This document shows positions 52,708 through 59,088 of a stretch of 64,000 nucleotides of DNA, in pieces (the first letter of the stretch is position 1; each line of letters opens with the position of its first letter). The notes beneath the pieces were generated by a model. The model did no database searches. It worked only from the letters and a program-made list of their open reading frames with translations, and was not told the origin of the DNA. A program made the position numbers and the translations under genes. This DNA is from an uncultured Spirochaetota bacterium (lineage in GTDB: Bacteria > Spirochaetota > UBA4802 > UBA5550), in the NCBI GenBank assembly GCA_937872225.1, contig CALMRZ010000078.1, positions 62,001 through 126,000 on the forward strand, read 5' to 3'.

Positions 52708-53141
52708 CGCGCCAGCACCCGCTCCATGAGGATTGCGTCAACGTCGTCGTAATAGTTTTTGCGGCGGCCGGTTTCGATGAAACCGGCTTTCCGGTAGAAC
52801 GTTCGGGCCGCGGTGTTTAGCTCGCTTACCTCGAGAAAAATTTTAACCGGTCCATGGGCTTCCCGCGCGTCGCTGATGACGCGCTCCAGCAACCGAGAGC
52901 CCAGGCCCCGGAGCCGCCGGTCCTTCCTGACGCCGATGTTGTTGAGCTGGATCTCGTCGGCGACGATCCAGGCCACGGCAAAACCGACTATGTCGCTGTC
53001 TTCTTCCAGGACGTAGAAACGGGAAAAATTGAGGCCCAGCTCATCGGCGAACTGCCGCCGGTCCCACCGCGCGTGTCCTTCGCGCTCGATATCGTAAACG
53101 GCATCGATGTCTCCGGCGGCGGCTGTCCTGATCAATGTCAC
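52704..53141 (-). CDS. rimI: GNAT N-acetyltransferase (RimI-like)
   Basis: 145 residues with the GNAT core: VLEEDSDIVGFAVAWIVADEIQLNNIGVRKDRRLRGLGSRLLERVISDA (~47-95), including the acetyl-CoA-binding R-x-x-G-x-G/S (RRLRGLGSRLL), and NTAARTFYRKAGFIETGRRKNYY. RimI acetylates the N-terminus of ribosomal protein S18; many RimI-like enzymes have wider targets. The GTG start overlaps the stop of the crotonase gene (GTGA) and its end overlaps engB. Confidence 0.82.
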   Translation of the reverse strand: MTLIRTAAAGDIDAVYDIEREGHARWDRRQFADELGLNFSRFYVLEEDSDIVGFAVAWIVADEIQLNNIGVRKDRRLRGLGSRLLERVISDAREAHGPVKIFLEVSELNTAARTFYRKAGFIETGRRKNYYDDVDAILMERVLAR

Positions 53142-53914
53142 TTGTCTTTGGGCACCGGGTCGCGCTTTTCAAGGAAGGCGGCGACGCCTTCCCTCTTGTT
53201 TTCTGTTTCGCAAAGCGCTCCGAAGGCGTCCCGCTCCATTTTCAGGGCGGCGTTGAATTCCATCGTGAGCCCTTTTCGGATCACTTCCATGGCTGCCTTG
53301 ATGGCGGGCCTGCCGCGGAGGGCGATGGCCGCCGCGAGCTTCTTCGCTTCGTTGACGGCTTCGCCCTTGGGCACGCAGCGGTTGACGATACCGTATTCCG
53401 CCGCCTGTTTTCCGCTGATGAAATTGCCGGATAAAATAAGCTCGTAGGCGCGTCCGGTCCCGAAAAACCGCGGGGACCGCTGGGTCCCGCCGAAGCCGGG
53501 AATGATGCCGAGCTTTATCTCCGGGAGCCCCATCTGGGCCGTTTCATCGGCTATGCGTATATGGCAGGCCAGGGCGGTTTCGGTCCCTCCGCCCAGGGCA
53601 TATCCGTTGATGGCGGCGATAAAGGGCTTGTCGGCGTTCTCGATCAGGTTCATCAGCTCCTGGCCTGCCTTGAGCCAGTCGCTTCCCGCCTGCCGGGTGT
53701 TGAGGGAGGTGAATTCGCTGATGTCCGCCCCGGCGATGAAGGCCTTCCCTTCGCCGGTAAACACGACCGCGCGCACGGCATCGTCCTTGAGGGCCCTTTC
53801 CACGGCCTCCCGGATGTCCTTGATGACCGGGGTGCTGAGGGCGTTCATCGGCGGCTTGTTGATGACCATCAGGGCGACGCCCTGGCCGTCTACGGTATAA
53901 CTGCATGTTGACAT
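53138..53914 (-). CDS. Enoyl-CoA hydratase/isomerase (crotonase family)
   Basis: 258 residues. Oxyanion-hole region AFIAGADISEF (58-68), catalytic Glu112 (ALGGGTETALACH) and Glu132 (MGLPEIKLGIIPGFGGTQR). Paralogue of the island enzyme at 21105, with matching PPMNAL start and FLEKR end. AAGGAG precedes the ATG at 53914. It is unusual as the first gene of an operon with rimI and engB, whose roles are unrelated, and lies 15 kb from the acyl-CoA island. Confidence 0.9.
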   Translation of the reverse strand: MSTCSYTVDGQGVALMVINKPPMNALSTPVIKDIREAVERALKDDAVRAVVFTGEGKAFIAGADISEFTSLNTRQAGSDWLKAGQELMNLIENADKPFIAAINGYALGGGTETALACHIRIADETAQMGLPEIKLGIIPGFGGTQRSPRFFGTGRAYELILSGNFISGKQAAEYGIVNRCVPKGEAVNEAKKLAAAIALRGRPAIKAAMEVIRKGLTMEFNAALKMERDAFGALCETENKREGVAAFLEKRDPVPKDK

Positions 53915-54043
53915 GATAGGCTCCTTGTAAATTATAATAAAATTTCCATCGTCGCCGCGGGGATGAGCTTAATAAGCTTGATAATTTATAAAAATTGTTG
54001 GATATGTAATATTTGTAAACAACTTTTTGGTGATTGGCGAACG

Positions 54044-54159
54044 GATAATGTTTGCCAGGCAGGGAATTGCCCCGCGAGTAGGCGACAGGGATGTCGCCGA
54101 TTCCGCCGAGTCAACACGGACGTTATACGAGGCGGACGAGCGGGGCGGTTCCCTGCCTG
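54044..54159 (+). ncRNA. Candidate structured RNA with two CsrA-consensus hairpin loops
   Basis: A GATAAT box at 54044-54049 (poor -35) would start transcription near 54056. From there, bases 54056-54075 pair with 54140-54159 over 20 bp. Two of these pairs are U-G wobbles that work only in the + strand RNA. Inside are two hairpins: GGCGAC-AGGGAT-GTCGCC (54081-54098), and TCCGCC/GGCGGA (54102-54107 with 54131-54136) holding AAC-ACGGAC-GTT. The loops read ACAGGGATGT and ACACGGACGT, both fitting the ACANGGANGT motif bound by CsrA/RsmA. The layout resembles CsrA-sponge RNAs or the TwoAYGGAY motif. The 315-bp gap 53915-54229 holds this element and the crotonase promoter side. A weak TGCAT/ATGCA stem before TTTTT near 54208 may end it. 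Confidence 0.5.
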
Positions 54160-54229
54160 CTTTACTTTCATTCAATAAATCAGAAGGATGCATACCCAAT
54201 GCAGCCGGATTTTTCACCTGTCAGGAATA

Positions 54230-56335
54230 TTAAAAATGCGGCTCTTCCCCGGAACAGCCGTGAAAATACTTCACCAGGGTCACCTGGTTCCCTTTTTCGT
54301 TGAAGGTCATCACGTCAAAGGATTTCCGGGCCAGTATCAGGCCCCGCCCGTGGGTGAGAAGGTCCCGGTTCACATTGTCCGCGGTCATTGCCATGAAGCT
54401 CCGATGGTCAAAACCCTTGCCTTCATCGGTTATCCGGTAGGCCGCCATGGCGGGCGTCAGGGAATACTCGACTCTGACCCGCTTTTCGCGGTAAAGGGCG
54501 TCCTTGCGGCGGTCGCGAACGAACTGGAGATACTCATGTCCGGCCCCGGAACCGGATTTTTCATTGAACTGGATGTCCAGGTTCCCGTGCTCAATAGCAT
54601 TGATGATTATTTCAAGGAGGCCTGTTTTCACCGCCTGCACGCCGCCCTGGTCCAGGGACTTGCCGAGGTTTTTGATGAGGCGCTGGGTCAGCAGCTCGGC
54701 GTGGCTGAAATTGTTGTCGGTGTAATATACCTGGCGCTCTGTTTCCAAGAGGTCAAGGAGTATGTCATCGTTCACCGGCGAGGCGGTACCGAAGATGTTC
54801 GCGGTGCCTTCCGATTCAACATAATCAAGCTTGACCGAAAGGGAAACGGGCTCGCTGCCGTACTTGGCCTTGAAATCGCTCCTGAACGTTATGGTTGTCT
54901 TGTCCTTTCCGAGGCCTGACAGGTGTTCCCGGTAAATCTGGCGGAACATGTCGCCATCTTTTTCGCCCCGGCGGTCAATGTAGTCGAGAAAGGCCGTGGC
55001 AAGCACTTCCTCCGGCTCATACCCGAGCAGCTTCTTGATCGCCCTGTTGACCGTGGCAAAGCGGAACTGGTCGTCCAGGTTGAAAATGATATCATTGGAG
55101 CTTTCAATGAAATGGATGTATTTCTTCCGGGTCTCTTCGACCTGGAGCCTCATCATGTTCATGCGGTCGGCGAGGCCGAGGGAAAGAAGGATTACCATGG
55201 CCACCCAGCCGGCCTGCATGCTGTAGTTGGTAACGGGGTTTTCCGGGATGAGCCCGTAGGTTTTAAGGATATAGAGTATCACTCCGAGGATCAGTATGCC
55301 GACCGCGATGAGGAATGACCGCGCGGTCCGTGATTTTTTTATAAAGGTAAGGTTTACCAGGAGATAGAGGCTGTAGACCACGCTGATGAGGGTGATGGCC
55401 GTTATGGTCACGATGCTGAATCGGTAGTTCTGCAGTATGAGCGTTGAGAGGCCGGCGGCAAGGCCGAGAAGGATGAGGATCCTGACGGCAATGTCGGCGC
55501 GCGGCATATGCTTCCGCAGGTCGATGTAATACCTTCCGAATTGAAGGAAGAAGGCGTAGGTCAGGCCAATCATGAGCGGGTTGTTGTACCGTTCCCACCA
55601 CGGATTGCCGGGCCATAGGTGCTGGTAGGATGTGCCGTTAAGTCCCATGGCGAGGAAGAGCATAGCGGCGATCGACATCATGTAATACAGATAGCCGATA
55701 TCCCTCATGGAAAAAAAGAGGATCAGGTGGTACAGGAGCATGACCAGCAGGATGCCGTAGAACATCCAGAGGAAGGCTGATTCCTGCCCGTGCATTATTT
55801 TGAAAACATCGGGGGAATAGAGGTCAAGGTCGACGATGAGGGCGCTGTCCGAGCGGAACCGGAGATAACAGGTGACTTCACCCCGGGGTTGTACCGTCAG
55901 GGGAAACACAAAGGTCCGGAAATTCATCGGCCTCTGGGCGAAGGGGAAACTGTGGCCGGTCCTCATGTGCGTCACGGATGTCCCGTCATCGACATAACAG
56001 TCAAGGTGGCTGATGAGGGCGTAGTTCTGGTTGAGATAGCAATCAATGGCTTTTCCGGAATTGTTTTTCAACCGGAATCTCACCCAGTATGACGCCGTGC
56101 TGAAGCCGAACCCGAGGGATTCCTTTTCGGACTTCAGCCAGCGGAGGGGATGGCCGTTCCGGTCAAGCTGGGTGCTGCCGCGGATGTCTTCGATGGACAG
56201 GATGCTGGCCGGGTCCCGGAGGTATTCCACATGGGGCCCGAGGGACATGTTCCTGAAATCGCGGTCCACAACGACGGTTCCGGCCGATGCATCGGCTGCC
56301 AGGAAAAGGAAGATGATGAGGGCTGACAGCTTCAT
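54230..56335 (-). CDS. 7TMR-DISM sensor with PAS and GHKL-type ATPase domains
   Basis: About 701 residues from the ATG at 56335, which opens a signal peptide (MKLSALIIFLFLAADASAG); the frame is open to 56416. Residues ~25-175 form the periplasmic 7TMR-DISM extracellular domain (YWVRFRLKNNSGKAIDCYLNQN), then seven membrane segments (~190-385) and a PAS domain (FIESSNDIIFNLDDQFRFATVNRAIKKLLGYEPEEVL, ~408-444). An anti-sigma-like ATPase domain follows (LLEIIINAIEHGNLDI ... ITDEGKGFDHRSF ... HGRGLILARKSFD). No phosphoacceptor His box is seen, so it may act like RsbW rather than as a true histidine kinase. Ligand unknown. Confidence 0.82.
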   Translation of the reverse strand: MKLSALIIFLFLAADASAGTVVVDRDFRNMSLGPHVEYLRDPASILSIEDIRGSTQLDRNGHPLRWLKSEKESLGFGFSTASYWVRFRLKNNSGKAIDCYLNQNYALISHLDCYVDDGTSVTHMRTGHSFPFAQRPMNFRTFVFPLTVQPRGEVTCYLRFRSDSALIVDLDLYSPDVFKIMHGQESAFLWMFYGILLVMLLYHLILFFSMRDIGYLYYMMSIAAMLFLAMGLNGTSYQHLWPGNPWWERYNNPLMIGLTYAFFLQFGRYYIDLRKHMPRADIAVRILILLGLAAGLSTLILQNYRFSIVTITAITLISVVYSLYLLVNLTFIKKSRTARSFLIAVGILILGVILYILKTYGLIPENPVTNYSMQAGWVAMVILLSLGLADRMNMMRLQVEETRKKYIHFIESSNDIIFNLDDQFRFATVNRAIKKLLGYEPEEVLATAFLDYIDRRGEKDGDMFRQIYREHLSGLGKDKTTITFRSDFKAKYGSEPVSLSVKLDYVESEGTANIFGTASPVNDDILLDLLETERQVYYTDNNFSHAELLTQRLIKNLGKSLDQGGVQAVKTGLLEIIINAIEHGNLDIQFNEKSGSGAGHEYLQFVRDRRKDALYREKRVRVEYSLTPAMAAYRITDEGKGFDHRSFMAMTADNVNRDLLTHGRGLILARKSFDVMTFNEKGNQVTLVKYFHGCSGEEPHF

Positions 56336-56500
56336 GCGGATACAAGGCCTCCCTGGCGTTTGGTCCGGGCTTGAGGTCGCTTTATGCGGAAAGCGACGGT
56401 TCTGCCTGTAGTACATTCCCCGTTTGACATCCTGTCAATGACAAAAAGGGGCAACAGGCCCACTATTATCGATGAAAAATGTATGAATATGACCGGTGCA

Positions 56501-56961: not shown

Positions 56962-57927
56962 ATGGCAGACATGATGAAAGAAGGATCATTTTTCCATAAA
57001 TATATCCTCCGCATCAACCGGGACGAGCTTCTCTTCGATATATTGCTCTATGCCTATACGGAATTTTTCCTGTACCGGTTCGTCACCGGAGGGAAATGGT
57101 TCGTGCAGGTCCTCTCGATGAAATCGCTCCTGGTCGCCGGGGTCTTCCTGGATTTCTTCATCATCTGGTACCTCGGCACGGTATTCCGGGAGTACCGCGC
57201 CTATTACCGGAATGCCGTCATCTATGTGGCGTACTGCATCGCGGCCCTTTGGATCGTGATCGCCCTCCACCTCGGCGTTGTCATGAATGTCTTCGATATC
57301 TTCGGCAGGGGTGATTTCATCGTCATGTCCGTGTTCGGATATCTCCTGGTCATGGTGGGCATCGCGGGGGGCGTCGTTTTCGCCGCGACGGAGGTCCAGC
57401 GGGGGAAGGGGAGGCCCGTCGCCGCGGCGCGCCTGAGGGCTCTCAAGATCGTGGTGCCCTTCGGCATGTGGGCCATGAACATCTATCTGGTGTATCATCT
57501 CCTTGAAAGCCTGAACATGAGGAGTTTTCTTGTCGGCATCCCCCTCTGGGTGCTGTTCACCTTCCTGGAATACTACCTCTTCTCGTTTTTCGAGAAGCGT
57601 GTCAAAAAAAAGGTTCCCGAAGAACCGCGGCCGTCACGGTTCGACCGGATCTTCCGGTCATACCTGTTCCCCGTCATTGTCGTGACATTGCTCTGCCTCT
57701 GGGACGAGATCTTTCTCTGGGGGAGCATCACCAGGGCCCTCAGCCGGGGAGAGACGATCTCCCTGGCCGGCACGATCGCCTACCTCACGCTGGCCGGTAT
57801 CGTGCCGATGCGGATCATCCTGGTCTTCCAGCCGCCCCTGAACCTGGTGAACCTTGCCGTCGGCGCAGGGAGCATGGGGTATTTCCTCTATTCCGTGGCC
57901 ATGCTCCTGAAGAGCGTCTTCGTTTAA
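56962..57927 (+). CDS. Polytopic membrane protein of unknown function
   Basis: 321 residues with about eight hydrophobic segments (SLLVAGVFLDFFIIWYLGTVF near 55, AVIYVAYCIAALWIVIALHLGVVM near 85, FIVMSVFGYLLVMVGIAGGVVFAA near 120) and a Lys/Arg-rich loop near 215-228. No transporter or enzyme motif recognised. The start at 56962 has a poor ribosome-binding site. It stands alone between the DUF486 gene and the ferredoxin-like gene. Confidence 0.65.
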   Translation: MADMMKEGSFFHKYILRINRDELLFDILLYAYTEFFLYRFVTGGKWFVQVLSMKSLLVAGVFLDFFIIWYLGTVFREYRAYYRNAVIYVAYCIAALWIVIALHLGVVMNVFDIFGRGDFIVMSVFGYLLVMVGIAGGVVFAATEVQRGKGRPVAAARLRALKIVVPFGMWAMNIYLVYHLLESLNMRSFLVGIPLWVLFTFLEYYLFSFFEKRVKKKVPEEPRPSRFDRIFRSYLFPVIVVTLLCLWDEIFLWGSITRALSRGETISLAGTIAYLTLAGIVPMRIILVFQPPLNLVNLAVGAGSMGYFLYSVAMLLKSVFV

Positions 57928-58002: not shown

Positions 58003-59088
58003 ATGGCAGACGATGTATACTACCGGTTACGGGACATTCTTGACAAAATGCCCAACGGCTATCCGGCGACGGAAGACGGGCTTGAGATAAAGATACTCAA
58101 GAAGATCTTTACCGAGGAAGAGGCGGAGGTCGCCACGAAGATGCGGATGAAATTCGAGACCGCGGAGGCCATGGCGGCCAGGACAGGCATGGACCCCGAA
58201 TATCTTAAGACGATGCTGCCCAAAATGGCGAACCAGGGACAGATCTGGGGCGTAACCATCGGGGGAGCGAAGATATACAAGCTGGCGCCCTTTGTTTTCG
58301 GCATCTACGAATGGCAGGTGTACCGCATGGACAGGGAGCTGGTCGACATGCTGGAGCTCTATTCCCACAGGGATTTCGGAAACGTTTTCTACAGCCAGTC
58401 GCCGGCTCTCCTGAAGGTGGTGCCTATAGAGAAGGAAATTCCTGCCGAATCGGTCATCGAGCCGTACGAGAGCATTTCGAGCCTTATCGAAAACGCGAAA
58501 TCATGGGCGGTCGGCGACTGCGTCTGCAAAAAAGAGAAAAGTATCCTCGGCGAAAGGTGCGACAAGCCCATGGAAGTCTGCATGGCCCTCTCCCCGATCG
58601 AGAACATGTTCGAAGGCTACTTCTGGGGGAGGCCCATCACCAAGGAAGAGGCCTATGCCGTGCTGAAGAAGGCCGAGGATTCCGGCCTGGTGCACATGAC
58701 ATCCAATACGAAAGAAGGTCATATCTACATCTGCAACTGCTGCGGCTGCTGCTGCGGCATTCTCAGGGGAGTGAACGAACTGGGTCTCGATTCAGCGCTG
58801 GCGCGCTCCAATTACCGGGCCGTGGTGGACGCGGACCTCTGCACCGCCTGCGGCGCCTGCCTTGACCGGTGCCAGGTGAAGGGTGTCATCGAACTAGGCG
58901 ACACGGCGGTTATAGGCGAGCGCTGCATCGGCTGCGGCCTCTGCGTGTCGGCCTGCCCGGTGGAGGCGATCAGGATGGCAAGAAAAGACGATGCCCACAT
59001 CGAGTATGTGCCGATAGATGAAAAAGAGTGGAACAGAAAACGGGCCGAGTTCCGCGGCAGGGACGATTACAAGGACCTGCTGAAATAA
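58003..59088 (+). CDS. Iron-sulfur protein with two C-terminal [4Fe-4S] ferredoxin motifs
   Basis: 361 residues from ATG 58003 (GAGGTG upstream). The N-terminal ~120 residues look like a winged-helix region (AMAARTGMDPEYLKTMLPKMANQGQIWGV). The middle holds a Cys-rich cluster (CVCKKEKSILGERC, CNCCGCCCGIL). The C-terminus has two ferredoxin motifs, CTACGACLDRCQVKG and CIGCGLCVSACPVEA. This arrangement is common in anaerobe proteins that link electron transfer to an unknown partner. The helix-turn-helix-like start hints at DNA or protein binding. A promoter palindrome lies just upstream. Confidence 0.75.
   Translation: MADDVYYRLRDILDKMPNGYPATEDGLEIKILKKIFTEEEAEVATKMRMKFETAEAMAARTGMDPEYLKTMLPKMANQGQIWGVTIGGAKIYKLAPFVFGIYEWQVYRMDRELVDMLELYSHRDFGNVFYSQSPALLKVVPIEKEIPAESVIEPYESISSLIENAKSWAVGDCVCKKEKSILGERCDKPMEVCMALSPIENMFEGYFWGRPITKEEAYAVLKKAEDSGLVHMTSNTKEGHIYICNCCGCCCGILRGVNELGLDSALARSNYRAVVDADLCTACGACLDRCQVKGVIELGDTAVIGERCIGCGLCVSACPVEAIRMARKDDAHIEYVPIDEKEWNRKRAEFRGRDDYKDLLK

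Follow-up and report, generated by a model that had tools for sequence, protein, structure and literature searches.

The element and its surroundings

The window, meaning the whole stretch of 64,000 nucleotides analyzed, derived from an uncultured Spirochaetota bacterium, carries a 104-nt structure at positions 54056-54159 between two minus-strand genes. The next plus-strand gene begins at 56962, in agreement with the preliminary description, which placed no such gene within 2.8 kb. The locus comprises the following features.

53138-53914, minus strand: enoyl-CoA hydratase/isomerase gene (PF00378, 1.2e-59), with its start facing the element
54044-54049, plus strand: GATAAT, a -10-like hexamer ending 6 nt ahead of the stem
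54056-54075, plus strand: 5' arm of P1, the 20-bp closing stem (from the fold)
54076-54080, plus strand: junction GAGTA, consensus GAGNA (alignment columns 20-21 invariant)
54081-54098, plus strand: P2 hairpin, GGCGACA-GGGA-TGTCGCC, with loop ACAGGGATGT (from fold and alignment)
54103-54135, plus strand: P3 hairpin, CCGCC-GAG-TC-AAC-ACGGAC-GTT-ATA-CGA-GGCGG, with the hexaloop ACGGAC of ANGGAX form (from fold and alignment)
54140-54159, plus strand: 3' arm of the closing stem P1 (from the fold)
54230-56416, minus strand: gene for a 7TMR-DISM / PAS / histidine-kinase-like ATPase protein, ending 70 nt from the element

The 20-bp pairing of the P1 arms includes two G.U pairs and encloses two hairpins with the loops ACAGGGATGT (54085-54094) and ACACGGACGT (54114-54123), whose GGA motifs start 29 nt apart. 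The region 54030-54175 had a minimum free energy of -78.3 kcal/mol compared to a mean of -48.7 kcal/mol in 200 dinucleotide shuffles (z = -7.4; 0/200 as good), which confirmed the closing stem with its two U-G pairs and the two hairpins reported earlier. The accompanying claim that the stem is valid in plus-strand RNA only was too strong, because the minus strand of the window copy also folds strongly (-62.3 kcal/mol versus -69.4 kcal/mol for the plus strand). The GA of the junction and the GA of 54136-54139 can form tandem G.A pairs, a predicted interaction, and P1 is followed on its 3' side by the T-rich GCTTTACTTT, a weak terminator-like tail. The copy presents two hairpin loops with A(N)GGAX, and at least two such loops are the mark of a CsrA-binding RNA.

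Dispersal and mobility of the family

BLAST against the own genome recovered more than a dozen clear copies, whose outer stems vary around a core that hardly changes. A first covariance model, built from 36 copies and counted at E ≤ 1e-3, found 22 copies in the own genome. Four congeners yielded 34, 15, 9, and 4 copies, a fifth congener yielded none, and two further genera of the family had 4 and 1. With a second model, trained on 81 matches, copies also turned up in other genera of the order (7 in G020 and 11 in G033, among others) and elsewhere in the phylum; in total, some eight spirochaete genera besides that of the window have the element. The element is accordingly no orphan, as it had been described, and the alternative offered at the time, one copy of a dispersed repeat, was borne out by the search of host and relatives. 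The core pattern was without any match in viral contigs, and a viral origin was set aside.

In the congener G004, the flanking genes are collinear and window positions 54039-54228, which hold the element, are replaced by 18 nt; for this single site, G004 might in principle have lost the element. Younger G004 copies are bordered by the repeats GGTAGCAGT...ACTGCTACC, which lie some 25-30 nt beyond the closing stem; a terminal-repeat pattern has 48 matches in G004 versus 2 for its reversed control. Terminal inverted repeats (TIRs) were seen in copies from G004 and G001 and in part of those from G000. Target duplications of 9 bp flank L066 (GTGAAATGA), L083 (ATTGATCGC), and L075 (TATAAAATA), and a near-perfect one flanks L064 in G001. 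The window copy has lost any TIR or target duplication that could be recognized. The hairpin family is mobile, as the empty orthologous site and the TIRs and 9-bp duplications of congener copies demonstrate; TIRs, a target duplication of fixed length, and an empty site characterize it, at the family level, as a miniature inverted-repeat transposable element (MITE).

No intact autonomous partner with shared ends was found in six genomes. ORFs were read beside single TIR ends from three genomes (G004, G001, and G000), and only an ISKra4-family remnant on G004:C24 looked relevant. Its left end, GGTAGCAGATTAATTTTGGGGGTA, is 19/24 identical to the left end of the MITE and sits 85 bp ahead of a transposase ORF, and the following fragment matches NF033572 (3.2e-8). 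This locus (L193, G004:C24:50000-64542) contains, near record position 58700, a truncated and apparently frameshifted ISKra4-family transposase with an IS66-type transposase gene downstream. The truncated element is a plausible relative of the mobilizing element through its similar left end; the link to a parent is suggestive, not proven, because only a truncated copy, followed by the IS66-type gene, was found. Another NF033572 match, L195 in G002, was rejected as a partner by its nonmatching ends.

Known short, palindromic, dispersed, and intergenic repeats with TIRs and target duplications include ERIC, BOX, and Correia. The family resembles MITEs of this type in all these properties and differs from them in that its interior keeps RNA loops of a protein-binding type while the stems drift.

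Conservation of the loops

The P1 arms are complementary in nearly all copies, with differing sequence. Family-wide, the top strand contains 36 G.T and 36 A.C pairs in P1, and strand-specific selection on this stem was rejected on these equal counts, which also leave a closing stem specific to plus-strand RNA unsupported. In the absence of strand preference, complementarity alone does not show selection at the RNA level, and palindrome correction or DNA-level effects would explain it. It is the loops, not the stems, that point to a plus-strand RNA.

A(N)GGA lies in or at the loop in 125 of the 169 predicted hairpins from 75 distinct copies, compared to 8/177 on the antisense strand and 30/594 (5%) in shuffles, and these loops stand on 47 different stem contexts, which argues that selection keeps the CsrA-type loop. 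In other genera the stems are new and the loops are kept, with GGCAACATGGATGTTGCC and CCCACGGATGGGG in G033 and GGCGTCAGGATGACGCC and TGGACAGGGATGTCCA in G201. The base between A and GGA can be any base or missing, and CsrA/RsmE recognition of A(N)GGAX, with the ANGGAX hexaloop, tolerates N in the same way (PMC4005645). In the window copy, ACAGGGATGT at the loop of P2 fits the SELEX core ACARGGAUGU (PMC7652899). At a site common to three species (L005, L075, and L063), the flanks are saturated with changes and the core is kept. GGA was lost from P3 in a minority of copies, for example in L013, L015, L064, and L068.

The match of the loops to the CsrA-binding consensus, noted before in a single copy, is a conserved feature of the whole RNA family. 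Because the loops are preserved and almost all else has changed, the mobile element seems to be a carrier of predicted CsrA-binding sites.

Relation to TwoAYGGAY and other RNA families

The preliminary description had proposed a comparison with TwoAYGGAY (RF01731), which turned out to be the right one. At the gathering threshold, the Rfam scan gave no match in the window. With a relaxed threshold, the window copy aligned to RF01731 on the right strand and over the full length (1-168) with 18.3 bits versus a gathering score of 43, and is a divergent relative whose score does not make it a member. Five divergent copies reached 28.0-35.3 bits, and four spirochaete copies exceeded 43 bits (49.4 and 46.6 in G033, 48.6 in G024, and 43.7 in G003), one of them in the genus of the window; several of these coincide with R1/R2 hits. 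The relaxed-threshold matches together with these four make the family continuous with TwoAYGGAY.

TwoAYGGAY is described as a family of unknown function with a predicted, untested CsrA binding, and tandem G.A pairs are reported in its stem (PMC4333381). The shared architecture consists of a long closing stem and two hairpins with (A)YGGAY-type loops in the same order and with the same junction; the window copy has AGGGAU and ACGGAC, and many sister copies have an AUGGAU loop. The families differ in that the hosts reported for TwoAYGGAY, human gut, Gammaproteobacteria, and Clostridiales (PMC2864571), do not include spirochaetes, and in that most copies here score below gathering. The accessible TwoAYGGAY text also leaves mobility, TIRs, and a multi-copy state unmentioned, all of which are present in the spirochaete family. 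The architecture is thus now placed in another phylum, and because its CsrA-type loop stays invariant while some nine genera have diverged, the family provides strong evidence for the CsrA-binding prediction made for TwoAYGGAY.

The A(N)GGA hairpin loops, which would bind CsrA dimers, are shared with CsrB/CsrC and RsmX/Y/Z. Those RNAs have many hairpins, in contrast to two hairpins in tens of dispersed copies here, and their families were unmatched by the element in the Rfam scans, so that the suggested CsrB/RsmZ comparison came out negative. We know of no CsrA-catching RNA in spirochaetes. The literature search for CsrA, GGA motifs, and MITEs in combination found none beyond one database paper.

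Presence of csrA and fliW

The own genome has a single csrA, downstream of fliW. Its product has L4, R6, V42, R44, and I47, all five known as RNA-contact positions of E. coli CsrA. Since csrA was found in 19 of the 20 genomes of the family, whether the element is present or not, co-occurrence neither supports nor refutes a connection, and the presence of csrA was discarded as a discriminator. The presence of fliW anticorrelates with the Gac/Csr-sRNA circuit, and the same source leaves it open whether FliW and CsrA-binding RNAs act jointly in any single species (PMC7652899). The lineage of the element has fliW; the genomes with csrA beside fliW represent organisms in which such joint action is testable.

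Gene context and promoter motifs

The gene context was counted in 53 copies with usable context, with genes from a simple codon-usage caller. In tandem gene pairs, the GGA strand was antisense to both genes in 25 cases and sense in 6 (P = 0.0009); 20 further copies lie between divergent genes and 2 between convergent ones. The bias indicates that co-transcription of the GGA strand is disfavored, and the transcripts of the neighbors would rarely contain the loops. Either selection removes sense insertions, which would be expected of loops that bind something important, or insertion is strand-biased.

The GATAAT read as a -10 box is in place, but it has no -35 hexamer at a usable distance, is absent from the promoter scan listing, and is not conserved in the family. 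Among 15 own copies, no conserved promoter was found ahead of the stem, with -10-like hexamers in 3/15 versus 5/15 in a mirror control. The hexamer is probably a chance occurrence in an AT-rich flank.

A probable mobile carrier of CsrA-type RNA sites

We consider it probable that the locus is a mobile MITE insertion with a TwoAYGGAY-type interior, working as a CsrA decoy or as a site in a host transcript. The insertion would be one of a non-autonomous repeat, whose interior would form an RNA in which a closing stem leads into a three-way junction with two hairpins, each presenting A(N)GGA. If the plus strand is transcribed, one CsrA dimer could grip both loops across the 29-nt spacing, and the RNA would act as a decoy or as a CsrA site within whatever transcript holds the element. 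MITE behavior and a CsrA-type RNA are compatible and not mutually exclusive. From the sequences we infer CsrA binding, expression, and titration as the effect, with unequal confidence: an element transcript would likely bind CsrA, whereas titration by the copies is less likely than not. Equally tentative is the idea that transposition sets the CsrA decoy pool and, through this pool, the set point of the CsrA-FliW flagellar switch in FliW-using bacteria. If true, a global regulator would be rewired in a new way, by a mobile element that multiplies RNA sites for protein binding. The antisense bias, the strand-neutral P1, the unconserved promoter, the minority loss of GGA from P3, the 18.3 bits of the window copy against RF01731, its lack of a recognizable TIR or target duplication, and the equal presence of csrA in element-free genomes count against the decoy reading.

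A purely selfish MITE, with hairpins serving transposition or recognition at the DNA level (as a cruciform or single strand) and a coincidental likeness to CsrA sites, would fit the TIRs, 9-bp duplications, and empty site, the strand symmetry of P1, the long forms with some reversed hairpins (TCC loops), and the avoidance by the GGA strand of the sense direction of neighboring genes. Such an element predicts terminal repeats as the best conserved part, whereas across genera A(N)GGA survives longer than any stem and longer than the TIRs, the core persists between saturated flanks at the site shared by L005, L075, and L063, and the tolerated loop changes match CsrA recognition in detail; we regard this account as unlikely.

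The preliminary description had suggested a dedicated CsrA-titrating sRNA gene driven by GATAAT. The CsrA-type RNA in this proposal stands at the family level, and the hexamer 6 nt ahead of the stem and the T-rich tail behind P1 agree with it, but the dedicated promoter-driven gene does not stand: many MITE-like copies exist, the orthologous G004 site is empty, and the -10 motif has no -35 and is unconserved among copies. An orphan sRNA gene is ruled out by the many copies, and a dedicated gene at this locus is very unlikely. A cis-acting, CsrA-controlled leader of a downstream gene would accord with the Cis-reg type given to TwoAYGGAY in Rfam and with a right-hand gene on the plus strand in 26/53 copies, mostly about 90-250 nt downstream. 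It appears highly improbable considering the 2.8 kb to the next plus-strand gene at the window locus, the rarity of sense orientation in tandem pairs (6/31), and the lack of any common downstream gene noticed.

Variant copies and their neighbors

Long forms (L016, L018/L019, L020, L082, L101, and L111) contain additional hairpins, almost all of which have AGGA loops on differing stems, and have at least three CsrA-type sites; some inserted hairpins are reversed and show TCC loops. At the orthologous site L020 (G000) / L086 (G004), the long form in one species corresponds to the short form in the other, and the insert changes at a fixed position. Derivatives of 54-58 bp, apparently little beyond two terminal repeats, occur at G004:C18:36143-36196 and G004:C19:25886-25943. 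L199 (G079:C85) consists of two inverted copies inside a long palindrome that appears to be perfect and is probably an assembly artifact. On G005:C20, two copies (L141 / L158) lie about 160 nt apart and are flanked by two tRNA genes; L031 in G004 is close to a tRNA gene, and L148 in G015 is located about 75 nt upstream of tmRNA.
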